DNA of 20,403 bases from positions 1-20,403 of IMG/VR virus record IMGVR_UViG_3300025598_000229; one strand, written 5' to 3'. The notes below the pieces were generated by a model. The model was not told the origin of the DNA. It made no database searches and was given only the letters and a program-made list of their open reading frames with translations. How positions within the stretch are numbered: the first letter of the stretch is position 1; every line of letters begins with the position of its first letter. Source of the DNA: a virus. Below, in pieces: positions 3,831-20,403 of this stretch. The position numbers and the translations under genes are program-made.

Positions 3831-4316
3831 TTACCTCATTTGTAGGGTGGTACCACCGTTTGATAATTGAGCGCCGGGGACGTTCTCATTATGCTCAAGA
3901 GCTTCCCTAATCGCAACTTTATTAGGTTCTTTTTTAACACGCAGAAATTGTTCTGGAAGTTGACTTTCGTCAACAATGACTACAGATGCTGGTTTCTGCG
4001 CTACAGACACTGTCTTCTCAGTGCCCACAAACTTTTTCATCTGTGCGTCCTCTAGCAAAAGCAAAATGCTTTGCCTCAAATTACGTGCCTTGTATTCGTA
4101 ACGGGCTTGACGCTCCTTCAACTCTTCACATCGTTTGCCCATGTATTTGGCCATACCCTCGGCCTCAATGACGCTTTCGATGAGTTCGTTAACCACGTCA
4201 TCAAAATTTACCTCGCCTTCCAACATGTCCAACTTCAACTGGCTGTCGGTCAGCAGCTCTGGGTAGAGGTGAATGAGGGTGTTAACTTCGTTACGGATAC
4301 GAATAAAATTCTTCAC
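3831..4316 (-). CDS. Siphovirus Gp157-family protein
   Basis: 161 residues from a GTG at 4316. The protein is mostly helical and charged in the N-terminal two thirds (FDDVVNELIESVIEAEG..., then a coiled-coil-like region). It then has the family's C-terminal pattern: KKFVGTEKTVSVAQKP, DESQLPEQFLRVKKEPNKV, IREALEHNENVPGAQL. Gp157 proteins accompany ERF-type annealases in siphoviruses; a link to phage resistance has been suggested for the family, but the mechanism is unknown. The GTG at 4316 forms a GTGA overlap with the stop of the upstream microprotein. A GTG at 4340 would add eight residues but lacks a clear ribosome site. The gene contains an operator-like palindrome at 3959-3974. Confidence 0.85.
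   Translation of the reverse strand: MKNFIRIRNEVNTLIHLYPELLTDSQLKLDMLEGEVNFDDVVNELIESVIEAEGMAKYMGKRCEELKERQARYEYKARNLRQSILLLLEDAQMKKFVGTEKTVSVAQKPASVVIVDESQLPEQFLRVKKEPNKVAIREALEHNENVPGAQLSNGGTTLQMR
3959..3974. repeat. Operator-like palindrome inside the Gp157 gene
   Basis: GTTGAC TTTC GTCAAC is a third exact copy of the palindrome GTTGAC-N4-GTCAAC that overlaps the -35 elements of the two leftward promoters at 9746-9775 and 11179-11208. Here it encodes part of the DESQLPEQ region of Gp157, and no matching -10 element follows on either strand. It may bind the same regulator, as an auxiliary or roadblock site, or be coincidence. Confidence 0.45.
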
Positions 4317-4779: not shown

Positions 4780-5071
4780 GGACTGGCTTGAAGAGTGTGC
4801 TTGGCTAATAAAACAGCAAACAAGAGACTTGATTAACGGTGACTATGTTATTCATATCCTTGCGAAAAGACCCGACCGCCGCAAACGAGATTTAGATAAT
4901 CTGCTTAAAGCGACAAGTGACCTACTTGTCAAAACCAAGATTGTGCCCGATGATTCGCTATGCCGAGCCTTGGCCGCCGAGTGGGTGGATGAAGGTGACC
5001 CAATGACTATTCATGTCTATGAACATTCTGATGAAGAGGCAAATACGCAATGGACTATATTACCGAACTGA
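4691..5071 (+). CDS. rusA: RusA-family Holliday junction resolvase
   Basis: 126 residues. The N-terminus ITLRLPLAPSANQLW is the standard RusA opening (P.S.N..W/Y), followed by SQKYKDWLEE. The catalytic acidic cluster sits in RPDRRKRDLDNLLKATSDLL (about 60-79), with a further Asp in IVPDDS; RusA uses such Asp residues to bind Mg2+. The enzyme cuts four-way DNA junctions symmetrically, clearing branched replication and recombination intermediates before packaging. Length matches the family (about 120). The start ATG lies inside the preceding gene, and the end overlaps the DnaA-like gene by 22 bp. Confidence 0.9.
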   Translation: MITLRLPLAPSANQLWQQGKGRTFKSQKYKDWLEECAWLIKQQTRDLINGDYVIHILAKRPDRRKRDLDNLLKATSDLLVKTKIVPDDSLCRALAAEWVDEGDPMTIHVYEHSDEEANTQWTILPN

Positions 5072-5487
5072 GAATGCATTACGAGGGTGTCAAGCGCCGT
5101 CTGCATGGTCTGAGCGGTCCTACAGGCTTGCGGGTACCTAAACCGCCAGCTCCGCCAGTCGAGAAAACTGCGCCAGAGACCGTGTTCGTCATTGATACGC
5201 CTCGGTCAAGATTTGTCAAAATGCTTAAGGAAGTAGCCGCAATGCACGGCATCGATCCAGCAGAAGTCATGGAAAAGAACCGCAAATATTCCGTGGTTCG
5301 GGTTCGGCAAGAGGTGTTTGCCAAAGCCCACGATGACTTGAACCTATCCTTTAGCCACATTGGGCGGATCATGGATCTTGACCACACAACCGTCATGCAT
5401 GGCTACCGCAAGTATAAAAAATCTTTGCTGTCGCCAGAACAAATTGCTTTACACGAGGACGCTATCAATTATGATGTAGGGTGTTAG
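5050..5487 (+). CDS. Free-standing DnaA domain IV-like DNA-binding protein
   Basis: 145 residues. Residues 80-123 read as the C-terminal DNA-binding domain of the replication initiator DnaA. RVRQEVFAKAHDDLNLSFSH corresponds to the helix before the turn, and IGRIMDLDHTTVMHGYRKY matches the DnaA signature (GRDHTTVLHACRKI in bacterial DnaA). In DnaA this domain reads the 9-mer DnaA boxes at oriC. The AAA+ domain is absent; instead there is a basic N-terminus and a Pro-rich linker (VPKPPAPPVEKTAP). The gene is coupled to RusA and followed by a terminator. It could bind the phage origin, bind host DnaA boxes, or act as a transcription regulator. Confidence 0.85.
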   Translation: MDYITELRMHYEGVKRRLHGLSGPTGLRVPKPPAPPVEKTAPETVFVIDTPRSRFVKMLKEVAAMHGIDPAEVMEKNRKYSVVRVRQEVFAKAHDDLNLSFSHIGRIMDLDHTTVMHGYRKYKKSLLSPEQIALHEDAINYDVGC

Positions 5488-5551: not shown

Positions 5552-7036
5552 ATGTGCCAAACGATGAAACAGTTACGTGATTACCAAGAACAGGCGATCG
5601 ATCAGCTTAAGCAAGCATTCCGCACTGGGTCGAAGCGGGTCGTTCTGCAGATGCCAACTGGCGGAGGCAAGACCGCAGTAGCCGGTGCCATCATCCGCAT
5701 GGCCCGTGAGAAGGGCAACAAGATTTGCTTTGTCGTTCCCGCCTTGTCACTGATCAATCAGACGGTTGATTCGTTTATAGCTGACGGGCTGCCCGACCAA
5801 GACATTGGCGTGATCCAAGCAACCCATGAGCGCACCGACTGGCGCAGACCTATCCAGATCGCCTCGGTCCAGACGCTTAATCGGCGGGAATTGCCAGAGG
5901 TTGATCTGTGGATCATTGACGAGTGTCACGTCATTTATAAGGTCTACTTCTCGATATTGGAGCAGAGCAAGGCACCGATGATAGGTCTGTCTGCTACGCC
6001 TTGGGCACGTGGCCTTGGCAAAATTTACCAAAAACTCATCATTGGCACGACAACGCAAGAATTGATTGATAATGGCTACTTGTCTGGCTTTGTCGCCTAT
6101 GCGCCTGCCCATCCCAACTTGAAGTCGGTCAGAACTATGGCTGGTGACTATCACGAGGGCGACTTAGGCAAGGTCATGGATGACAATGACTTGATTGCGG
6201 ATGTGGTCGATACGTGGCTAAAGCTGGGCGAAGGTCGGCCAACACTGTGTTTCTGCGTCAATCGTTTACACGCAAAGCACATGCAGCAACAGTTTATTGA
6301 AGCGGGAGTAAGGGCAGAATATGTCGATGCATATACAGAAATTGATGAGCGCGATGCTATCAACGATCGTTTTCGGAATGGTGATCTTGATGTTGTTTGT
6401 AATGTTGGTGTTCTCACTACTGGAGTCGATCTTCCGTTTGTTAGTTGCATTATCCTCTGCCGTCCAACAAGAAGCGAAATCCTTTACACTCAAATTATCG
6501 GGAGAGGACTTCGACGGCATCCCGGCAAAGATGATTGCCTTATCCTTGACCATAGCTCTACTACTTCTCGTCTTGGTTTTGTTACTGACATAATTAAGCA
6601 CTCTCTCGACGATGGGGAACGCAATGTACAGAAAGCCGAACGTAAGGAACCCTTACCGAAGGAGTGCCCCAAGTGCAAATACCTTAGACCTCCGAAAATT
6701 AAAGCGTGTCCTGCATGCGGCTTTGTTGCTGTGGCGACGAATGATATTGAAACCGAAGAGGGGGAGCTTCGTCAGATTAAGTCAACCGGGCGAGAGGCAA
6801 CAAGCGCTGAGAAGGCTCAGTTTTTCGCTGAAATCAAATGGTATGCACAGTCGCGTGGCTACTCAAAAGGTTGGGCGGCACATCTATTTAAGGAACGCTA
6901 TAAAGTTTGGCCAAACCACTATAGTGATGTACTACCGCGTTTCGCCTCGGCAGATACTATTAACTACATCAAATCAAGGCAGATAGCCTATGCAAAAAGG
7001 AAGTCAAATGAAAGCAAGAGATCTAGCAAGGCATAA
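5552..7036 (+). CDS. SF2 DEAD/DEAH-family helicase with C-terminal zinc ribbon
   Basis: 494 residues. RecA domain 1 has the Q-like LRDYQEQAI, Walker A PTGGGKT (35-41), motif II DECH (123-126) and motif III SATP (147-150). Domain 2 has TTGVDLP and motif VI QIIGRGLRR (314-322). A four-cysteine zinc ribbon follows (C372, C375, C386, C389). This is the UvrB/RecG-like SF2 layout of phage replicative or repair helicases that unwind DNA with ATP. The primase directly downstream suggests a helicase-primase replication pair. The first ATG is at 5552; an ATG at 5564 (MKQLRDYQ) is the likelier start. Neither has a good Shine-Dalgarno, because the preceding terminator runs right up to the gene. Confidence 0.92.
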   Translation: MCQTMKQLRDYQEQAIDQLKQAFRTGSKRVVLQMPTGGGKTAVAGAIIRMAREKGNKICFVVPALSLINQTVDSFIADGLPDQDIGVIQATHERTDWRRPIQIASVQTLNRRELPEVDLWIIDECHVIYKVYFSILEQSKAPMIGLSATPWARGLGKIYQKLIIGTTTQELIDNGYLSGFVAYAPAHPNLKSVRTMAGDYHEGDLGKVMDDNDLIADVVDTWLKLGEGRPTLCFCVNRLHAKHMQQQFIEAGVRAEYVDAYTEIDERDAINDRFRNGDLDVVCNVGVLTTGVDLPFVSCIILCRPTRSEILYTQIIGRGLRRHPGKDDCLILDHSSTTSRLGFVTDIIKHSLDDGERNVQKAERKEPLPKECPKCKYLRPPKIKACPACGFVAVATNDIETEEGELRQIKSTGREATSAEKAQFFAEIKWYAQSRGYSKGWAAHLFKERYKVWPNHYSDVLPRFASADTINYIKSRQIAYAKRKSNESKRSSKA

Positions 7037-7926: not shown

Positions 7927-8304
7927 ATGATCATGAACCAAGACGCAACAGCTGATCTGGTGGCTAAGAAGTGGCTATGCCAAGCTGTAAAGATGCGGCA
8001 CCCGTTTACTGTCGGTTATGCCTTGCACCGAGATAGCAAGTTAAAGATCTGGCTTGATGTCATTATTTTGGAGCATGAGTTTGATATAAACGACTTCAGC
8101 CACATCCCATTACGTTGCGTGAAAGAAGCCCATGAACTTTATCAAGTTACTGAGAACCCGTACTTTGTTGTGTTTTGCTTTACTGACGGGCTTTGGTACG
8201 TGAAGGTTGATGTTGTCCGGCACGAAGTGGCTGTCATTAACGACAACGTGTATTCCCTCGTGCCGAACACTGCATTGACTGCATTTAGTCGTTCACCTCA
8301 ATGA
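7927..8304 (+). CDS. Phage protein, function unknown
   Basis: 125 residues from the ATG at 7927, preceded by AAGGAAAG; a second ATG at 7933 is possible. The frame is open upstream to 7750 but that part lies inside the primase gene. The protein begins with a helix (ATADLVAKKWLCQAVKMRHP) and continues as alternating strands (HPFTVGYALHR, KIWLDVIILEHEFD, YFVVFCFTDGLWYVKVDVV). Not recognised. It is the last gene of the replication operon, and its 3' end overlaps the convergent gene at 8285 by 20 bp. Confidence 0.7.
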   Translation: MIMNQDATADLVAKKWLCQAVKMRHPFTVGYALHRDSKLKIWLDVIILEHEFDINDFSHIPLRCVKEAHELYQVTENPYFVVFCFTDGLWYVKVDVVRHEVAVINDNVYSLVPNTALTAFSRSPQ

Positions 8305-8500
8305 CTGGACGATCCAGTGCGAGGAGCATGCGGTTGATGTCTGACCGCAATTCCTCAATCGTCTCACCTACTGGCCAAATGGCATTCTCGGTATGGCCAT
8401 TCATAGATCTATCGTCATTGTAGTAAACCTCATGGACCGCATAATACACGTGACCTTTTTCGGGTTGATGTTTGATAACACGATAATTCCAAGTTCCCAT
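8285..8500 (-). CDS. Small conserved protein, function unknown
   Basis: 71 residues: TWNYRVIKHQPEKGHVYYAV opens the protein, EVYYNDD follows and VGETIEELRSDINRMLLAL is near the end. From memory, short proteins with this W-NYRV...VYYA-HEVYYD layout occur widely in proteobacteria and their phages with no assigned role. It is the last gene of the leftward operon started at 9746-9775, with a weak ribosome site, and converges on the replication operon. Confidence 0.75.
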   Translation of the reverse strand: MGTWNYRVIKHQPEKGHVYYAVHEVYYNDDRSMNGHTENAIWPVGETIEELRSDINRMLLALDRPVIEVND

Positions 8501-8509
8501 TTGGCACCT

Positions 8510-8749
8510 TTAGTGAATTGAGTGATCGGTATCTTCGTCATCTTCGTGCAGATCAGCAGCCAAAAACATCATGATGGCGACATACATGGTCGAGCGATCT
8601 TTAGGGTCAGCACGTAGCAGTATCGCCTTCAGTGATGATTGCAGGGCCATAACACCTACGCCAATGGTTCTGTGTTGGACAAGCTCCCCAATCTTGATAG
8701 CGATGGCGAATGCTTCATCCACATGTTGAGTAATATTTTGGTCTTCCAT
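8510..8749 (-). CDS. Small phage protein, function unknown
   Basis: 79 residues, predicted all-helical, with an acidic C-terminus (DLHEDDEDTDHSIH). Not recognised. The hydrophobic helices (FAIAIKIGELVQ, STMYVAIMMFLAADL) are too polar for a clear membrane span. It lies 9 bp upstream of the 8285-8500 gene, with AAAGGACAGCC before the start. Confidence 0.65.
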   Translation of the reverse strand: MEDQNITQHVDEAFAIAIKIGELVQHRTIGVGVMALQSSLKAILLRADPKDRSTMYVAIMMFLAADLHEDDEDTDHSIH

Positions 8750-8761
8750 TTTGGCTGTCCT

Positions 8762-9001
8762 TTAGGCTACGAGGGTTTTAAGGGTCGTACGGGCACGGTG
8801 GCCTTCATCGAGGTCGATCGCACCAGTTTCGTAAATGCGGGGCTTGGCGTACCAAGTGAGAGCGTCCAGCATGGCATTCAGCTCTACCTTGGCCCGGCGT
8901 TGCAATTCGATCTTGCAAGCGCATTCGCCTTCGCACACAGACGGATCAAGCTGGAAGCATTCAAACTGATCGTCATTAAGCAGCGACTGTATGTGTTTCA
9001 T
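8762..9001 (-). CDS. Small phage protein, function unknown
   Basis: 79 residues from the ATG at 9001, preceded by TTGGAGTAAAAGCG; a longer in-frame start at 9040 lacks a ribosome site. Three cysteines sit close together (CEGECACKIE), which could bind metal with a fourth Cys at about residue 15, but the spacing is not a known motif. Not recognised. The start overlaps the end of the 8976-9335 gene by 26 bp. Confidence 0.65.
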   Translation of the reverse strand: MKHIQSLLNDDQFECFQLDPSVCEGECACKIELQRRAKVELNAMLDALTWYAKPRIYETGAIDLDEGHRARTTLKTLVA

Positions 9002-9335
9002 CGCTTTTACTCCAAGTTTGGGTACATACGCGGGTGACAAATACCCGTACCCGTTTCTTCATTTCATCAGTCATGTACAGGACACGGCCCTGCCCACTTG
9101 TGACGGCTAAGATTTCAATGCCATGTGGTTTAAGCACCTTGCGGGTACGCCACAGCAGCATATCGCAGTACTTATCCTTAGGCGGCTTGCGCCCGTAATT
9201 ACGGAGGATGTCCATCAGATCATGCCGCTCCACGTGGATTACGTCTTCATCAGCCAACAGATGGATAAGAGCTGCCACCTGTGTGCCGGTATTGAAGGCC
9301 AGTTCGTAATCATGCATTGCAATTTGTCGGTACAT
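8976..9335 (-). CDS. Possible winged-helix DNA-binding protein
   Basis: 119 residues. The segment LIHLLADEDVIHVERHDLMD, then RNYGRKPPKDKYCDMLLWR, RKVLKPHGIEILAV, and TSGQGRVLYMTDEMKKRV has the order of a winged-helix domain of the OmpR C-terminal type: helices, a recognition-like helix, and a beta hairpin wing ending in G-x-G-hydrophobic-x-hydrophobic. If so, it is a candidate regulator, possibly of the paired palindromic promoters nearby. This is a pattern judgement without a decisive motif. The start has AAGGAATTGAA directly before it and follows a TTCG-loop hairpin (9355-9372). Confidence 0.68.
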   Translation of the reverse strand: MYRQIAMHDYELAFNTGTQVAALIHLLADEDVIHVERHDLMDILRNYGRKPPKDKYCDMLLWRTRKVLKPHGIEILAVTSGQGRVLYMTDEMKKRVRVFVTRVCTQTWSKSDETHTVAA

Positions 9336-9354
9336 TTCAATTCCTTATGCGGTT

Positions 9355-9372
9355 AGGGGGCCGAAGCCCCCT
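9355..9372 (-). other. Intercistronic hairpin with TTCG tetraloop
   Basis: On the minus-strand transcript this reads AGGGGGC-TTCG-GCCCCCT, a seven-base perfect GC-rich stem closed by an extra-stable UUCG tetraloop. It lies between the stop of the 9378-9701 gene and the start of the next gene. No T-tract follows (TAACCG...), so it is more likely an mRNA stabiliser, processing boundary or attenuator than a full terminator. Confidence 0.6.
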
Positions 9373-9377
9373 TGTTG

Positions 9378-9701
9378 TTATGCTGATGCAAGAGCTTTGT
9401 TTGGCTTGACGTTTAGGGTGACACGCACCGACTGCTTGGAGTGTTTGGTGTACCAAGCTTCGCCGTAGGTATCCTTGAGCAACTTGGTGTTGATCGTCCA
9501 AGCAACATCAGAGCGAACAACGATGTCGTAAGAGTTACCAGAGATCTTGCCAGCACCATTGATGCGGACCTTGGCGGCATCTTTGTATGCCTTAAGCTGG
9601 TCGTCAATGGCGTTTGCGAAAAAGTCGAGGCGGCCAATGGTGTCGGCCAGTTCTGCATCGCTGAGGTCGGCAGCGGCGGGGAGGTTGTTGATGTCGATCA
9701 T
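9378..9701 (-). CDS. Phage protein, function unknown (first gene of leftward operon)
   Basis: 107 residues. The N-terminal half is a helical region (LSDAELADTIGRLDFFANAI, DQLKAYKDAAK). The C-terminal half is beta-rich, with SYDIVVRSDVAWTINTKLL and AWYTKHSKQSVRVTLNVKP. The layout of a coiled N-terminus followed by a small substrate-contacting domain recalls Gp157-like helper proteins, but I do not recognise the family. AGGAG stands six bases before the ATG. It is the promoter-proximal gene behind the palindromic promoter at 9746-9775, and is separated from the next gene by the TTCG hairpin. Confidence 0.75.
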   Translation of the reverse strand: MIDINNLPAAADLSDAELADTIGRLDFFANAIDDQLKAYKDAAKVRINGAGKISGNSYDIVVRSDVAWTINTKLLKDTYGEAWYTKHSKQSVRVTLNVKPNKALASA

Positions 9702-9745
9702 GGTAGGCTCCTGTTAAGATGGGCTATTGCCCGTTGCGATGATTG

Positions 9746-9775
9746 TTTATCTCATATGTGTTGACCGAAGTCAAC
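9746..9775 (-). promoter_or_regulatory. Leftward promoter with palindromic operator over the -35 (copy 1)
   Basis: On the minus strand GTTGAC-TTCG-GTCAAC spans 9775-9760. The -35 TTGACT is 9774-9769, a 17-base spacer follows, and the -10-like GATAAA is 9751-9746. The same arrangement, including the bases A-AT-TG between palindrome and -10, recurs at 11179-11208. It drives the operon 9701-8285. Overlap of operator and -35 implies repression or regulated access by a dimeric protein. Confidence 0.72.
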
Positions 9776-9796
9776 TGGCATTTGACAAATATTTTT

Positions 9797-9828
9797 AAAA
9801 AAATGGTCTGGGGTCGTAACCCTAGACC
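9797..9828 (-). terminator. Rho-independent terminator of the 11139-9858 operon
   Basis: Minus-strand RNA forms GGTCT-A-GGGT, loop TACG, ACCC-C-AGACC (9828-9805; one A/C mismatch), followed by ATTTTTTT. It lies 30 bp past the stop of the last gene of the operon (9858) and just upstream of the next promoter, so it insulates the two operons. Confidence 0.75.
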
Positions 9829-9857
9829 GTTGGTAAGATCCACGCCCTTTCTTGGGC

Positions 9858-10148
9858 TTAACGATCCTCTGGTGAAAGATCGAGTGCATCAAGCTCTGCG
9901 CGTATGGATTTCTCAATACGATCGAGCTCTGATTGGGCTTCTTTATAGCCCGTCCTTTCCGATACTGCATGCAAAAACCTATCTTGGTACTGAATGGGAA
10001 GATCCCGGATGAACGACGATAGAAACGAGGTTTGATAGCCCAACATATAGCTATCTTTATGTTTAACAGCCTCTGGGCCGTGCCCCTCTAGCTGAGTGGT
10101 AACGTGATCACGGAGACGGTCAAAGGCAACGTCAATTGCAATACTCAT
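9858..10148 (-). CDS. Phage protein, function unknown
   Basis: 96 residues, predicted almost entirely helical and charged (KHKDSYMLGYQTSFLSSFIR, QSELDRIEKSIRAELDALDL). The C-terminal part suggests a short coiled coil. Not recognised. It is the last gene of the operon starting at 11139, 3 bp after the preceding gene and 30 bp before the terminator. AAAGGACTAAACC precedes the ATG. Confidence 0.7.
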   Translation of the reverse strand: MSIAIDVAFDRLRDHVTTQLEGHGPEAVKHKDSYMLGYQTSFLSSFIRDLPIQYQDRFLHAVSERTGYKEAQSELDRIEKSIRAELDALDLSPEDR

Positions 10149-10151
10149 GGT

Positions 10152-10385
10152 TTAGTCCTTTGGTTGGGGTAAAATTGGGATGATAGGCTCTTCTTCAACG
10201 TATTGGGTGACTTCTTTCTTTTGCAATCTCTCGATCGCCTCGGTAGGTGTCCACCCCGACCCCACAAAGTTCCAGAATGTTTCATACGGGCCACGGACAG
10301 CTAGCCAAATCTCGCTTTCTTTTTCCCGAAATACAGTGAAGTGATCCCTTGTCGGGGCCATGCGAGGAGGAAGATTGAGTTTCAT
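10152..10385 (-). CDS. Small phage protein, function unknown
   Basis: 77 residues. A beta-type N-terminus (FTVFREKESEIWLAVRG) leads into a helix (TPTEAIERLQKKEV) and a Pro-rich acidic tail (EEEPIIPILPQPKD). Not recognised. Its start overlaps the stop of the upstream gene as ATGA (10382-10385), with GGTGGTAA as a weak ribosome site. Confidence 0.7.
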   Translation of the reverse strand: MKLNLPPRMAPTRDHFTVFREKESEIWLAVRGPYETFWNFVGSGWTPTEAIERLQKKEVTQYVEEEPIIPILPQPKD

Positions 10386-10606
10386 TTACCACCTTTAAGT
10401 GTGCGTTGACATAAGTCCCATAGATACATTTCTTCATTGTAGATGTTATGGCCATCTTCATCGACCTCCACAAGTTCTGCTCTATCATCAAAGTAATCTC
10501 GACAGTCTTCAAGGGCGCTTTCCAGTTGCAAAATGTATTTGCGCACATCAGCCAAAAACCCTTCATCAATTGGCCATGCGTTTAATTTTTCTTTGAAGTT
10601 AGGCAT
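10382..10606 (-). CDS. Small acidic phage protein, function unknown
   Basis: 74 residues. Helical, with LADVRKYILQLESALEDC as a likely amphipathic helix and an acidic middle (DYFDDRAELVEVDEDGHN). Not recognised. AAGGAGAC stands before the ATG, a near-perfect ribosome site. The gene is translationally coupled to the next one. Confidence 0.7.
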   Translation of the reverse strand: MPNFKEKLNAWPIDEGFLADVRKYILQLESALEDCRDYFDDRAELVEVDEDGHNIYNEEMYLWDLCQRTLKGGK

Positions 10607-10616
10607 TTTTGTCTCC

Positions 10617-10877
10617 TTAAATGATTGATTTGTTCCAGTAGGCTAACCCAAATGCGTTTACGGCAGATTGCAGCAAGCGGTTGCCCGATTTGACTGGGCC
10701 GTCATACACTACAGCAAACAACCGGCCACGTTCATACGCCCAAAGGTCATTGGAATTTTCGGGGCAAAAGTCGTAGTCAAATGGTTTGCCAGCTTTGACC
10801 TCTTTGAACCCACGCACGAAGTGCTTTGTACGCATGATGGATTGGCATGTAACATCAACGGTTTTGATCTGTTTCAT
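10617..10877 (-). CDS. Small basic phage protein, function unknown
   Basis: 86 residues from the ATG at 10877. The frame is open to 11003, but that part would lie inside the upstream gene and reads as Cys-rich nonsense. The segment FVRGFKEVKAGKPFDYDF followed by WAYERGRLFAVVY has a G-F-x-x-x-x-A-G...W-x-x-G-R spacing seen in the ribosome modulation factor/CrpP group of short basic proteins. The resemblance is weak and I do not assign that function. It starts 1 bp after the stop of the upstream gene. Confidence 0.68.
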   Translation of the reverse strand: MKQIKTVDVTCQSIMRTKHFVRGFKEVKAGKPFDYDFCPENSNDLWAYERGRLFAVVYDGPVKSGNRLLQSAVNAFGLAYWNKSII

Positions 10878-10878
10878 A

Positions 10879-11139
10879 TCAATCTCTATTATCAAGCATT
10901 GCACAGAATACGATGTCCTTGTACAATTTTTTGTACAGCTCACCGCCCAACACGTGATGTTTCTGTGTTTTGAAATCACAAATGACATCGCCTTCTTCGT
11001 CATGCAGTTTGCCTACAAAATCTGAAACATTTTTAATGAACAGTTCATCGCCAGAAACATAATAGTCAACACTAGCAGTGCCTTCAGCCATGCCGAGGGT
11101 GGTTTCTACTGCGAAGTCGTATGTGAAATCGTATGACAT
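10879..11139 (-). CDS. Phage protein, function unknown (first gene behind promoter copy 2)
   Basis: 86 residues from the ATG at 11139, chosen because GGAGGCTAAC precedes it; a longer form from 11190 would begin upstream of the predicted transcript start region. The protein is acidic and beta-rich (YDFTYDFAVETTLGMAEG, VDYYVSGDELFIKNVSDFVG). Not recognised. It opens the five-gene operon that ends at the terminator 9797-9828. Confidence 0.75.
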   Translation of the reverse strand: MSYDFTYDFAVETTLGMAEGTASVDYYVSGDELFIKNVSDFVGKLHDEEGDVICDFKTQKHHVLGGELYKKLYKDIVFCAMLDNRD

Positions 11140-11178
11140 GTTAGCCTCCGTTTGGTGGGTTGCCCCGTTTGATGACCC

Positions 11179-11208
11179 TTTATCCCACATCTGTTGACGG
11201 TTGTCAAC
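11179..11208 (-). promoter_or_regulatory. Leftward promoter with palindromic operator over the -35 (copy 2)
   Basis: On the minus strand GTTGAC-AACC-GTCAAC spans 11208-11193. The -35 TTGACA (perfect consensus) is 11207-11202, a 17-base spacer follows, and GATAAA is at 11184-11179. Palindrome arms, spacer bases A-AT-TG and -10 are the same as in the copy at 9746-9775. It drives 11139-9858. The stop codon of the small upstream gene (11204-11206) lies inside the palindrome. Confidence 0.75.
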
Positions 11209-11392
11209 TTGTTTTTGACTTTTTATCCCATTTCATCAGTACAGAAAAAACACCGTGTCTACAACCACTTAGGTCGTTTACAACCACCCAGCCAGCCTTC
11301 TCGTGCAAAAAAATTTGATTGTGACAAACATATTTCAGCCAGTCGCAGTCGCCGTGCAAATCGTCTTGCGGGGGTATCAAATGGGCCACCAT
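11204..11392 (-). CDS. Possible small protein, function unknown
   Basis: 62 codons from the ATG at 11392, ending inside the promoter palindrome. The translation (HLIPPQDDLHGDCDWLKYVC, then HNQIFLHEKAGWVVV) looks protein-like, with Trp/His/Cys placement suggesting a small folded domain. It fills a gap that is otherwise empty on both strands. Against it: there is no Shine-Dalgarno, and only a lone TATAAC just before the ATG, which could give a leaderless message. Not recognised with certainty. Confidence 0.48.
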   Translation of the reverse strand: MVAHLIPPQDDLHGDCDWLKYVCHNQIFLHEKAGWVVVNDLSGCRHGVFSVLMKWDKKSKTS

Positions 11393-11435
11393 CTGGGTTA
11401 TAGTGGGACACTTCTCATCAACCTTGGAGGCTGCC

Positions 11436-11930
11436 GTGTCAGACGTAAATGATCGTTTCATCACTTTTTCCCCATATGAAGCTGACCAGCTGACCGTTCT
11501 CGGCGTATTATATGCTGGACCGGAAGACACTGGCTATGTTTTGGTTAAGGAAGCCTTCGACGATACGGACATCGAGGCCGCTGCTAAACTTGTAGGGCAG
11601 TGGATCGAGGATCTGCAAGAAGAACTTGACGGCTTCCAGAGTGCTCTTGAGGATGCCGATGAAGAAGAAACCGACGAAGACATCGAAAATTACTACGATT
11701 TTAGTGACATCGAGGAAGATGAAGACACCGATGAAGACGACGAATCAGTCTATGGCGACTGGAAACTTTATGCCGGTGTCTGGAATGATGGCGACACTAC
11801 ATCGTTAGAGTTTGATGATTCTTTCCATGAAAATCTGGACATTGATTCCCGAATTGCAATGTTGACCGACATCGCCACCGCTGCTATGGCGGGTGTAGAG
11901 GCGCTTCGGGCAGGACGGGATGCACAATAA
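11436..11930 (+). CDS. Highly acidic phage protein (possible DNA mimic)
   Basis: 164 residues from a GTG at 11436, preceded by GGAGG at ideal spacing; an ATG at 11403 lacks a ribosome site. The centre is extremely acidic, with runs such as EDADEEETDEDIENYYDFSD and DIEEDEDTDEDDES. Folded segments flank it (FITFSPYEADQLTVLGVLYA; IAMLTDIATAAMAGVEALRA). Acidic surfaces of this type are found in DNA-mimic phage proteins that block restriction enzymes or nucleoid proteins, and also in simple phosphate-rich linkers. The next gene is a DNA methyltransferase overlapping it by 11 bp, which makes a link to restriction plausible. Function is not established. Confidence 0.78.
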   Translation: MSDVNDRFITFSPYEADQLTVLGVLYAGPEDTGYVLVKEAFDDTDIEAAAKLVGQWIEDLQEELDGFQSALEDADEEETDEDIENYYDFSDIEEDEDTDEDDESVYGDWKLYAGVWNDGDTTSLEFDDSFHENLDIDSRIAMLTDIATAAMAGVEALRAGRDAQ

Positions 11931-12483
11931 CAAAACCGACAAAGCGATGCTCGGCACCTCTGGCTATGAGCGTGTCGAGCACGACCTATACGAAACACCG
12001 GCATGGTGCACCGAGGTGCTGTTGCGCCATGTTGTGTTCCAAAAGATCATATATGAGCCAGCAGCAGGCCGTGGAGCCATTGCACGGGTGCTAGAGCTAC
12101 ATAACCACCAGACCATCTGCCATGACCTTGTGGTGCGTGATTATCAGCCTTGTGCACAGACAGACTTCTTTCATGTCAAATCCACGCAAAAGCACTTCGA
12201 CATCGTAACCAATCCTCCATATGAGTGCTCGGTGCAGTTCGTTCGGCATGCACTGGCAATCACTGGGCCGGGCCAAAAGGTGGCCATGCTCCTTCGTAAT
12301 GAATGGGACTGTGCCTATACCCGGCGGGATCTATTTATGGAGATGCCGTTTAGGCTCAAGATCGTGCTTACACGCCGTCCTAAGTGGTTTAAGGATGACA
12401 TCAACGCGCCTCGGCATTCTTTTAGCTGGTATGTGTGGGATCACAATTGGTACAGTCCACCAGAGCTGATCTACGATCAGTAA
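11920..12483 (+). CDS. DNA N6-adenine methyltransferase (NPPY type)
   Basis: 187 residues. DLYETPAWCTEVLL opens the domain, EPAAGRGAI (46-54) is the SAM-binding motif I, and FDIVTNPPY (93-101) is catalytic motif IV of amino-methyltransferases. VAMLLRNEWD and RPKWF follow as in phage orphan methyltransferases. The enzyme should transfer a methyl group from SAM to an exocyclic amine, usually adenine N6. There is no separate target-recognition domain and no restriction endonuclease beside it, so it is an orphan enzyme, likely protecting phage DNA or altering regulation. CAGGACGGG precedes the ATG, inside the acidic gene's end. Confidence 0.87.
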   Translation: MHNNKTDKAMLGTSGYERVEHDLYETPAWCTEVLLRHVVFQKIIYEPAAGRGAIARVLELHNHQTICHDLVVRDYQPCAQTDFFHVKSTQKHFDIVTNPPYECSVQFVRHALAITGPGQKVAMLLRNEWDCAYTRRDLFMEMPFRLKIVLTRRPKWFKDDINAPRHSFSWYVWDHNWYSPPELIYDQ

Positions 12484-12498
12484 AAAATAAAATATTTC

Positions 12499-12549
12499 TT
12501 GACGGCTGAATAAAATCATTTATGTGGGAAGTGTAGTCAACACCCACAT
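12499..12549 (+). promoter_or_regulatory. Promoter and inverted repeat ahead of the AT-hook gene
   Basis: TTGACG (12499-12504), a 16-base spacer and TATGTG (12521-12526) form a candidate sigma-70-type promoter in the only non-coding gap on this side. ATGTGG (12522-12527) pairs with CCACAT (12544-12549), and the inner GTGT pairs with ACAC, making an interrupted palindrome over the -10 and start region that could be an operator. Confidence 0.5.
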
Positions 12550-12561
12550 GAGGTTTTATCT

Positions 12562-12882
12562 ATGCATAACAGCGATCTTGCAGAACAACTTTCCTACTTA
12601 AATCAACGGCTTAACGCACTTGCTAGTCAGATTAGCAACATCAAGTCGTCGAAAGCTACGGCCCGTCATCGCCATGTTGACATCCACGATGGTGAACAAC
12701 CAACCGCACGGAATACTGTGAAAATTGAGCAGTTGCCCTTGTCGTTTGATGCGCCTGCACGTGGTCGTGGTCGTCCTACCGGTCCTACCAAGCTTTATTC
12801 ATTGAACGCTGCCTACAAGATTTTCTTGGAGCGGGGCATCATCGTAAAGCGTGGCCGTGGCCGTCCGAGGAAGGCATCATAA
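12562..12882 (+). CDS. AT-hook DNA-binding protein
   Basis: 106 residues. Two AT-hook motifs are evident: RGRGRPTGP (67-75) and KRGRGRPRK (96-104), each with the GRP core that inserts into the minor groove of AT-rich DNA. The N-terminus (AEQLSYLNQRLNALASQIS) is a short coiled coil suited to dimerisation. Dimer plus twin hooks would let the protein bridge or bundle DNA like a nucleoid protein. It has its own promoter candidate and a short leader (ATGAGGTTTTATCT). The next gene begins 1 bp after its stop. Confidence 0.75.
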   Translation: MHNSDLAEQLSYLNQRLNALASQISNIKSSKATARHRHVDIHDGEQPTARNTVKIEQLPLSFDAPARGRGRPTGPTKLYSLNAAYKIFLERGIIVKRGRGRPRKAS

Positions 12883-12883
12883 C

Positions 12884-13330
12884 ATGGCCCCGATGAAGTC
12901 CAGTCGTGATGAACAATTTGTCCGGCGGATGGAAATGGTTGCCCTACGCAAGAAAGCTTTGACCTTTGGACAAATAGGGGCAAAGTTTGGTGTGTCGGGC
13001 AACACCGCCAGAGTAATTATTATGAGCGCGTGTAACAACGAAGACCCGCATCCTTACAAACAAAAGGTGTTAAATAAAATGACCAAACTAGTTAAGAACC
13101 GTATCAATGACCTTGAAATAGAAAATGCCGAGTTGCGTAGGGAGCAGCCATCCTTACGGGATCAGTTTGCAATGGCAGCACTGACTGGTTTGTTAGCTAA
13201 CTCAAAGTTGGCTAATAAATTTGTAGATGAACATGGCTGCAAAAAAGGCATGTGGGAACATCATGCATATGCATTTGCTGATGGGATGATGGAGGAACGT
13301 GATGCCGAGAATTGGGTTGTCCGAACTTGA
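12884..13330 (+). CDS. Helix-turn-helix protein with phage RD-x-FA C-terminal module
   Basis: 148 residues from the ATG at 12884, 1 bp after the AT-hook gene; ATG 12893 is an alternative. KKALTFGQIGAKFGVSGNTARVII is a clear helix-turn-helix (residues about 25-48). A coiled stretch follows, then LRDQFAMAALTGLLANS and WEHHAYAFADGMMEERDA. The latter matches a short module (RD.FA..A......A..AY..AD.M...R) that I recall at the end of many small phage proteins. The fusion of a DNA reader and this module suggests a regulator, but its target is unknown. Confidence 0.75.
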   Translation: MAPMKSSRDEQFVRRMEMVALRKKALTFGQIGAKFGVSGNTARVIIMSACNNEDPHPYKQKVLNKMTKLVKNRINDLEIENAELRREQPSLRDQFAMAALTGLLANSKLANKFVDEHGCKKGMWEHHAYAFADGMMEERDAENWVVRT

Positions 13331-17046: not shown

Positions 17047-17086
17047 CCCGTCCTGCGCGGCAAGACAAGGTGACGATGTGCAAAAC

Positions 17087-17164: not shown

Positions 17165-17566
17165 ATGTTTAAGTTCATCAAACGGCAATGGCTACGGCTT
17201 AAACAATCTTGGAACGCCTTCAAGCGTGAATGGCGCTTCAATCATGTCGATAGCACTGACCATCTCAAACAAGACAAGTCTTTTGTCATCATGGGACTGG
17301 GTGCCCTTCGTGGGCGGTTTTACGATCCGGGCTTTGTGCATGACGAGTTTGAGTTGTACCCGCCATATCGTGGGCAAGCACTAAATCGGCTCAATGGGCA
17401 TGCATTTACGCTAAAATATGCTTATTTTGACGACAAGACGGGCAATATTCGGTACTATGAGAAGCCACAGAAGATCGACGGATGGACTGCGGTGGATATG
17501 GAATGGTTTAAAGATTACGAAGACATCGGCAATAATGTTTCACGTGAAACAAATGGAGAACGCTAA
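17165..17566 (+). CDS. Phage protein, function unknown
   Basis: 133 residues, ATG 17165 with AAAGGGGCCAA upstream. A very basic amphipathic N-terminus (FKFIKRQWLRLKQSWNAFKR) could contact membrane or nucleic acid. The rest is a Tyr-rich mixed fold (GRFYDPGFVHDEFELYPPYR; LKYAYFDDKTGNIRYYEKP). Not recognised. Near the C-terminus, NNVSRET is encoded by a perfect parS sequence. It is the first gene of the rightward block leading to terminase. Confidence 0.72.
   Translation: MFKFIKRQWLRLKQSWNAFKREWRFNHVDSTDHLKQDKSFVIMGLGALRGRFYDPGFVHDEFELYPPYRGQALNRLNGHAFTLKYAYFDDKTGNIRYYEKPQKIDGWTAVDMEWFKDYEDIGNNVSRETNGER
17536..17551. promoter_or_regulatory. parS: parS-like site, copy 1 (TGTTTCACGTGAAACA)
   Basis: A perfect 16-bp palindrome identical to the bacterial chromosomal centromere site bound by ParB (consensus TGTTNCACGTGAAACA). 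It lies in the last codons of the 17165-17566 gene and encodes N-V-S-R-E-T. No parA or parB gene is visible in this window. Confidence 0.75.
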
Positions 17567-18934: not shown

Positions 18935-20403
18935 GCAAAATGTTTCACGTGAAACAATTCCAACGGGTGTTCTTCTACCGGGCATTGAGCGCATTACGGG
19001 TAGCGCTGCACCTATTGACGCAAAGGAAACGCTGAGGCAGTTCCGAGCGTTCCAGCTGCAAGATGATCTCTATAGCTTCATGCGCTACTTCTGGCCGGTG
19101 GTTGATTCGGCTGAGTTCGTTGAAGGCGGCTTTGCCATCCAAGCGGTGTGTGAGCATCTGACCTCGATGGTCGATGGCACTGGCATCCGAAACTTGATCA
19201 TCAACATTCCGCCGCGTTTCTCTAAGTCATTGATTTGTATGACGTTCTTTCCTGCATGGGTGTGGGCGCAACGTGAGATCACGCCGACATCGGGGCCGGG
19301 CGTTCAGTTTCTGTGTGCGTCTTACGGTTTGAACCTGTCATTGCAGGACAGCGTGAAGTGCCGCCGATTGATTTCTTCTAAGCAATACAATGACTTATAC
19401 CCACATATTAAACTAACAGGTGATGTTAACGCCAAGCAGCGCTTTGAAAACTCGCTCGGTGGATCTCGCATTGCAACATCGGTGGGCGCATCGACAACGG
19501 GTTTCGGTGGTGACTTCCTTCTGCTCGATGACCCGAACAATGCGCTTGAGGCAAACTCGGACGCGATCTTGGAGACGACAACCGACTGGTTCGACAATGC
19601 ATGGTCAACCCGTTTGAACAACCCAAAGACTGGCTGCCGCGTGGTGATCCAGCAGCGTCTCAGTGAGCGAGACATCACCGGCCACATCCTGTCGCGTGAC
19701 GTAGGCGACTGGTGCCACTTGGTGCTGCCCATGCGGTTTGAGCCAGAGCGCAAGTACATGACCGTCATCGGCTGGGAAGATCCGCGCACGATCGAGGGTG
19801 AGCTGCTGTGGGAAGACCGGTTTGGTGAGAATGAAGTAAAGATACTGGAGGCCACGCTTCTCACTGGAGCGGCTGGTCAGCTGCAACAGCGTCCCACGCC
19901 TGCCGGTGGTGGTGTCATCAAGCGTGAATGGTTTCAGCCATGGGTGGAGGAAAAGTACCCGCCCTTCTCGATCGTCATCATGTCGCTCGATACCGCATAC
20001 ACGACAAAGCAAGAGAATGACTTTAGCGCCATAACCATTTGGGGCATCTTTGAGGAGCCGTCTGGCGTTTCGGCTATTCAAGGGCCGGGTGGCCGCGTTA
20101 GTTCCAGCTTTGCACGTGTGGAGACCGAAGACGTGCCACGGATCATGATGGTCTACGCTTGGCGCGGCAAGGTGGAGTTCCACGAGCTGACCGAGAAGGT
20201 GGTAGAGCTGGCCAAAGCACATAAGGTGGACATCATCCTCAATGAGAACAAGGCGGCTGGGCATTCACTGGAGCAGGAGTTGCGGCGGCTGTATGCCCAC
20301 GAGGATTGGCAGGTGAGGCTTGAGAACCCCGGCGCGATGGACAAGGTGGCCAGAGCCTATGCGGTCCAGCACTTGCTTGCTGACGGGCTTGTATATGCGC
20401 CAT
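18921..20403 (+). CDS. terL: Terminase large subunit (3' end outside window)
   Basis: 494 residues are visible and the frame is open to the window edge; the ATG at 18921 begins MTKSKQNVSRETIPTGVLLP. ATPase domain: Walker A-like IPPRFSKS (96-103) and Walker B FLLLDDPN (199-206). Nuclease domain: MSLDTAY with Asp at about 357, ENDFSAITIWG, and IILNENKAAGHSLEQEL with Glu442, the usual metal-binding acidic set of RNase H-like terminase nucleases. The protein packages the genome with ATP and cuts it at the ends. QLQQRPTP (about 317-324) is a typical mid-protein signature. The second parS sequence covers codons 7-12. Gene length and start fit the family. Confidence 0.94.
   Translation, partial: MTKSKQNVSRETIPTGVLLPGIERITGSAAPIDAKETLRQFRAFQLQDDLYSFMRYFWPVVDSAEFVEGGFAIQAVCEHLTSMVDGTGIRNLIINIPPRFSKSLICMTFFPAWVWAQREITPTSGPGVQFLCASYGLNLSLQDSVKCRRLISSKQYNDLYPHIKLTGDVNAKQRFENSLGGSRIATSVGASTTGFGGDFLLLDDPNNALEANSDAILETTTDWFDNAWSTRLNNPKTGCRVVIQQRLSERDITGHILSRDVGDWCHLVLPMRFEPERKYMTVIGWEDPRTIEGELLWEDRFGENEVKILEATLLTGAAGQLQQRPTPAGGGVIKREWFQPWVEEKYPPFSIVIMSLDTAYTTKQENDFSAITIWGIFEEPSGVSAIQGPGGRVSSSFARVETEDVPRIMMVYAWRGKVEFHELTEKVVELAKAHKVDIILNENKAAGHSLEQELRRLYAHEDWQVRLENPGAMDKVARAYAVQHLLADGLVYAP
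18941..18956. promoter_or_regulatory. parS: parS-like site, copy 2 (TGTTTCACGTGAAACA)
   Basis: A second perfect copy of the 16-bp ParB-binding palindrome, 1,405 bp from the first, inside the first codons of terL. It is read in the same codon phase as copy 1 (N-V-S-R-E-T). Its neighbourhood, at the TerS/TerL junction, is also where packaging sites of many phages lie. Confidence 0.75.

Follow-up and report, generated by a model that had tools for sequence, protein, structure and literature searches.

The sequence studied here is a viral contig of 20,403 bases, referred to throughout as the window, which carries two operons of five small genes each on its minus strand. Operon 1 (8285–9701) comprises the genes at 9378–9701, 8976–9335, 8762–9037, 8510–8749 and 8285–8500, and operon 2 (9858–11139) those at 10879–11139, 10617–10877, 10382–10606, 10152–10385 and 9858–10148; none of these ten small genes matched a family in Pfam. 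All five genes of operon 1 have homologues in the related contigs L015 and L019, which are described below. A predicted intrinsic terminator of operon 2 (approximately 9796–9828, minus strand) lies directly upstream of the operon 1 promoter, with a fold z-score of -3.6 in the window and -4.0 in L019. The terminator stem is retained though its bases change, and the mismatch in the window stem is a pair in L019. Upstream of operon 2 lies a gene for 85 amino acids (11204–11461, minus strand), which is evidently real, since the window and L015 differ in it by 12 synonymous and 0 non-synonymous substitutions; its product has no Pfam match, and the structure model was unusable (pLDDT 39). A strong UUCG-loop hairpin, GGGGGC-TTCG-GCCCCC, occupies 9355–9372 of the minus strand between the first two genes of operon 1, and the L019 translations suggest that it is retained there.

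Each operon is preceded by a block of the same design. The operon 1 site, from 9775 to 9746 on the minus strand, reads GTTGACttcgGTCAACacatatgaGATAAA, and the operon 2 site, from 11208 to 11179 on the same strand, reads GTTGACaaccGTCAACagatgtggGATAAA, both exactly as an initial annotation of this DNA had given them. The operator dyads, GTTGACttcgGTCAAC at 9760–9775 and GTTGACaaccGTCAAC at 11193–11208, carry the -35 element within their left arms: TTGACT at 9774–9769 for operon 1, matching TTGACA at 5 of 6 positions, and TTGACA at 11207–11202 for operon 2, matching at all 6. The spacing from the -35 element to the -10 hexamer GATAAA (9746–9751 and 11179–11184) is 17 bp in both, and the common spacer bases A-AT-TG that had been claimed along with this spacing are found in both copies. 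A TG one base before the -10 forms an extended -10, TGNGATAAA, in both modules. In both this is followed by a conserved TCATC, with the predicted start at A 9740 for operon 1 and A 11173 for operon 2, and in the alignment a conserved CAT lies at the expected transcription start of both modules. The -10 hexamer has no final T, and a promoter scan of the window did not list either promoter.

The initial annotation was right about this core, although the shared block is larger than it described and extends to a third arm, the extended -10, the TCATC, a leader hairpin and a Shine-Dalgarno sequence. The third arm, GTCAA, is located 6 bases upstream of the operon 1 dyad (9782–9786, minus strand) and is retained there in all four genomes compared; its operon 2 counterpart (11215–11219, minus strand) also encodes the end of the 85-amino-acid reading frame and is GTCTA in L019. 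Read on the minus strand, the operon 1 module from 9786 to 9746 is GTCAA-N6-GTTGAC-ttcg-GTCAAC-acatatga-GATAAA, and the operon 2 module from 11219 to 11179 is GTCAA-N6-GTTGAC-aacc-GTCAAC-agatgtgg-GATAAA. The leader, hairpin and Shine-Dalgarno sequence are common to both copies, most clearly in L019. The hairpin takes the form GGGC-N4-GCCC (GGGC-AATA-GCCC at 9721–9732 of the minus strand for operon 1) or, in operon 2 of the window, GGG-GCAA-CCC (11157–11166, minus strand), followed in each case by GGAG before the ATG (9701 and 11139, respectively). The operon 1 hairpin is present in the minimum free energy structure, but neither the conserved hairpin nor its leader exceeds shuffles in stability, and no known RNA family matched in the window. 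Along about 90 bases the two leaders are homologous in L019, which indicates that the whole promoter-operator-leader cassette was duplicated; in the alignment, both sites descend from a single such cassette and are homologous. Because the conserved terminator splits the operons, operon 1 requires its own copy of the promoter, and this would account for the retention of two copies of one control.

Chance is a poor explanation for these sites. A first-order Markov model of the window predicts 0.0015 copies of the bare dyad GTTGAC-N4-GTCAAC, where three exist, and 8e-7 copies of the dyad with GATAAA at the fixed distance, where two exist. Of the 58 six-base dyads whose spacers range from 0 to 8 bases, the bare dyad alone is present three times in the window. 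With up to three mismatches allowed, the window holds 17 matches, against 9.0 ± 3.1 in shuffles. Neither GTTGAC nor GTCAAC is avoided in the manner of a restriction or methylation site. Two of the three exact dyads are intergenic and sit at the equivalent position of minus-strand promoters. The third, at 3959–3974, was missed when the motif was described as a pair of sites, both of which are real. It lies within a gene matching Pfam Sipho_Gp157, where it spells GTT GAC GAA AGT CAA, the codons for VDESQ, and its core recurs in L019, L020 and L021. We rejected it as an operator: in this gene, the window and L019 use the same codon for about 60% of unchanged residues, so a run of five identical codons is unremarkable and needs no regulatory explanation. 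The third dyad is probably coding.

We then compared the window with three relatives, giving four genomes in two lineages. The close relatives L015 (identical to L005) and L016 (identical to L006) were found by scanning viral contigs for the dyad with GATAAA, a scan that also returned one chance match within a helicase-like gene. The distant relative L019 was found by a primase search, and its proteins are approximately 37–84% identical to those of the window. Further distant relatives were sought with the 8976–9335 family, the leading gene of each operon and the helicase; these searches returned only the contigs already known or unrelated helicases. A lack of enrichment in related phages had been named in advance as evidence against the motif, and all three relatives carry both modules. 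A weight-matrix scan recovered exactly two modules each in the window, L016 and L019, with the weakest true site scoring 50.7 and the next match, leaving aside reverse readings of true sites, scoring 4.7. The modules of L019 precede homologues of both operons, although the segment that contains the two operons plus two adjacent genes (8285–12483 in the window, 11284–14988 in L019) is inverted between the lineages; no inverted repeats above chance were found at the borders of this block. The proposal of a duplicated promoter-operator before two otherwise unrelated leftward operons is therefore borne out by three related contigs, in which two homologous copies are kept before genes that do not resemble each other.

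The pattern of conservation within the cassette is uneven. Letters constant over the eight sites of the window and its relatives are GTC.AA......TTGAC....GTCAACA.A..TG.GATAA, and the outer pair of the dyad is G...C in seven of the eight and T...C in the other. When the window is compared with L019, all 6 bases of the right arm agree in both copies; the left arm agrees at 6 of 6 and 5 of 6, with one changed base in operon 2 of L019. Identity falls to 1 of 4 and 2 of 4 in the N4 spacer and to 3 of 6 in both N6 spacers. The -35 depends on the left arm, but recognition by sigma-70 has no use for the right arm, and its constancy is the strongest sign of a bound protein, which has probably conserved it. 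The arms appear to be conserved beyond what a promoter needs and the spacer between them varies, as in an operator for a dimer, and this strongly suggests that the operator is bound by one; the dimeric regulator that had been postulated is well supported in this respect. Alternatively, the symmetry might have no function and be a by-product of promoter duplication, as could be argued from the homology of the copies, leader included, and from TTGAC palindromes at the -35 of unrelated phage promoters (L025, L030 and L031, see below). This is highly improbable, as N4, N6 and the leader have diverged, yet the arms are fixed in nearly every copy across two lineages whose proteins have diverged widely.

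A phage-encoded regulator is plausible, and its most likely identity is the 119-amino-acid product of the second gene of operon 1 (8976–9335, minus strand), for which the structure prediction shows a winged-helix fold resembling SarA, MarR and PhoB. The model (pLDDT 69 overall, 73–86 in residues 21–100) has helices at residues 18–28, 37–47 and 54–71 and strands at 76–80 and 83–87, that is, three helices and a beta-hairpin wing, predicted at moderate confidence. Nearly all of its top structural neighbours are winged-helix regulators, with SarR at Z 9.4, SarA at 8.7, MarR types at about 7–7.6 and PhoB at 7.2, where a Z under 8 can reflect a common arrangement. Foldseek hits were weak (best E 0.05 in the PDB and 0.005 among viral models), and a search for sequence relatives among solved structures gave nothing credible. 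The protein matched no Pfam or PHROG family, and thus no MarR-family profile; we describe it as MarR-like in predicted fold only, not as a family member. Its putative recognition helix and wing are nearly invariant between the window and L019, which fits operator arms that stay constant. The identity of the regulator is the least certain part of our interpretation. The structural match is no more than modest, for a fold that is widespread; the relatives are also few, four genomes in two lineages.

Of the three candidates put forward in the initial annotation, the 8976–9335 protein is the only one that fits. A repressor encoded by another phage gene, whether the 85-amino-acid protein (11204–11461), the HTH protein (12884–13330), the DnaA-like protein (5050–5487) or a CI-like repressor off the fragment, is possible but somewhat unlikely. 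The contigs are incomplete, so that another regulator, such as a CI-like repressor, may be encoded outside them. Strong purifying selection acts on the 85-amino-acid gene, the end of which lies within the operator, its TGA stop being the TGA of the TTGAC in the left arm, in L019 as well as in the window; against it stands its lack of a family match and of a usable model. The HTH region of the 12884–13330 protein retains only about 41% identity in L016, even though the operator arms there match those of the window exactly, and 44% in L019. The DnaA-like protein matches Bac_DnaA_C (E 2.5e-12) and is unsupported as the regulator, as the DnaA box TTWTNCACA is absent from both modules and has its sole occurrence in the window at 17077.

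In our model, each cassette would comprise a sigma-70 type promoter (TTGACW, 17 bp, TGNGATAAA) with the operator dyad over the -35 and the spacer, plus one more half-site upstream and a short leader that carries a hairpin and a Shine-Dalgarno sequence. Given starts at 9740 and 11173, the dyad would span approximately -36 to -21, centred at about -28.5. A dimeric protein on the dyad would cover the -35 and block sigma region 4, turning both operons off, and the upstream half-site could take a further subunit. Encoded in operon 1, the 8976–9335 protein would regulate itself, repressing its own operon by negative feedback and shutting off operon 2 jointly. We give this complete reading, repression of both operons by an 8976–9335 dimer through the duplicated operator, a probability of roughly 45%; the cassette, its duplication and its pattern of conservation are direct observations. 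With moderate confidence, we infer repression rather than activation. That the dyad is an activator site, where a protein at about -28.5 aids the polymerase, is quite improbable: the GATAAA hexamer is weak and a published box centred at -29 has a positive effect, as proposed for the Anr-dependent katAp2 promoter (PMC4974557), but a near-consensus -35, optimal 17-bp spacing and an extended -10 should need no help, and the -35 would normally lie beneath a protein bound at -28.5.

The same published box raises the question of a host regulator. The core of the modules follows TTGAY-N4-RTCAA, and TTGACnnnnGTCAA equals the motif wyTTGACnnnnGTCAArw predicted for the FNR-like regulator HcpR1 (PMC1274295). 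At katAp2 of Pseudomonas aeruginosa, the -35 is overlapped by an Anr box, TTGac-N4-gtCAA, that is centred at -29 (PMC4974557). The modules thus share with FNR-family boxes the core TTGAC-N4-GTCAA, identical spacing, overlap with the -35 and a nearly identical position; they differ in the outer pair, the third arm and the phage setting, and no FNR-like gene was recognised on the contig. Binding by a host protein of the FNR/CRP family (FnrL, Anr, DNR or HcpR type), by which the phage would read the oxygen, nitric oxide or redox state of its host, is the chief rival reading and one that the initial annotation did not raise, but it is unlikely. The outer bases, G...C in most sites, differ from the y...r of HcpR1 and the C...G of DNR, so that those typical of the family are absent, and the third arm is foreign to these motifs. 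Moreover, the module, searched with a pattern that also required the phage -10 context, was absent from 84,980 bacterial and archaeal genomes. A literature search on FNR control of phage early promoters found nothing relevant. As for the host, the relatives of the terminase include phages of Roseobacter, Aeromonas, Paracoccus and Rhizobium and an environmental phage, which weakly hints at an alphaproteobacterium. It is distinctly unlikely that host sensing of oxygen, nitric oxide or redox state directly gates part of the phage programme, through FNR-family sites that overlie the -35 elements of two early operons, with no phage-encoded regulator; if the FNR-type reading were true, phage gene expression would be linked directly to host respiration.

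Among known phage systems, the arrangement proposed here, with the 8976–9335 protein as repressor, recalls OL and OR of lambda, where early promoters carry repressor operators over the -35 and -10. In both, one dyad is repeated at two promoters and overlaps promoter elements, probably bound by a dimeric repressor with feedback. Here, however, the operons are co-directional and in tandem, with one dyad and one half-site each, whereas lambda has three dyads and divergent promoters. The candidate regulator is also predicted to be a winged helix rather than a lambda-type HTH, and no lysogeny genes were recognised on the fragment. Regulators of the MarR type bind as dimers to pseudo-palindromes of similar size, and many of them repress the operon that encodes them; the 8976–9335 protein resembles MarR/SarA-type regulators in predicted fold, unlike them in lacking sequence similarity to any Pfam or PHROG family.

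Similar promoters also occur outside this lineage. The viral-contig scan returned 11 stretches with the correct spacer and 2 with a spacer one base longer (the control, none in this lineage), and most of the unrelated stretches among the 11 look like chance or coding matches. L031, L025 and L030 have TTGAC-N4-GTCAA at the -35, 17-bp spacing and an extended GATAAT -10, with two copies in L031 as well, but their flanks differ and they share few or no proteins with the window. They are independent occurrences, some possibly due to chance given the size of the scan. In L031, an unrelated viral contig, the two promoters (5189–5216 and 5833–5860) are 644 bp apart, with both the -35 (TTGAC-N4-GTCAAC) and the -10 (TTGAGATAATCTCAA) palindromic, and lie near a short reading frame that by eye resembles a Cro-type HTH. 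Such independent palindromes at the -35, those of L031 in particular, indicate that the design is easy to evolve, which lowers its novelty: the window offers a clean example of operator duplication within fairly ordinary phage gene control, not a new principle. Its value lies in a testable circuit for an uncultured phage group, with two operons, one operator and one candidate repressor in operon 1. The operon genes of this group have no match in named phages, and neither the DNA of this region nor the proteins of 9378–9701 and 8976–9335 matched any named phage.

Several other elements of the window are recorded here. An inverted repeat, ATGTGGG-N14-CCCACAT, with GTCAAC inside it, lies at 12522–12549 upstream of an AT-hook-like gene (12562–12882); it also occurs in L016 with one mismatch and is a possible further control site. 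GTCGAC is absent from the window, L016 and L019, where 4.6, 4.5 and 3.7 occurrences are expected, which suggests restriction-site avoidance. The window also has two perfect parS sites of the chromosomal type (TGTTTCACGTGAAACA; 17536–17551 and 18941–18956), one where the large terminase gene begins, the other about 1.4 kb before it. They are kept in the close relatives (10756 and 12005 in L016, 11832 in L015) and absent from the contig of the distant relative L019; no ParB was recognised among the genes examined. Perfect parS gave at least 120 matches in viral contigs, and 22 of 80 of these loci (L043–L122) have a terminase-large-like reading frame. Among the matches listed, seven loci have parS -100 to +500 bases upstream of the start of the terminase frame, against 2.3 expected by random placement with relatedness ignored, and L058 and L085 each carry five parS sites beside terminase genes.
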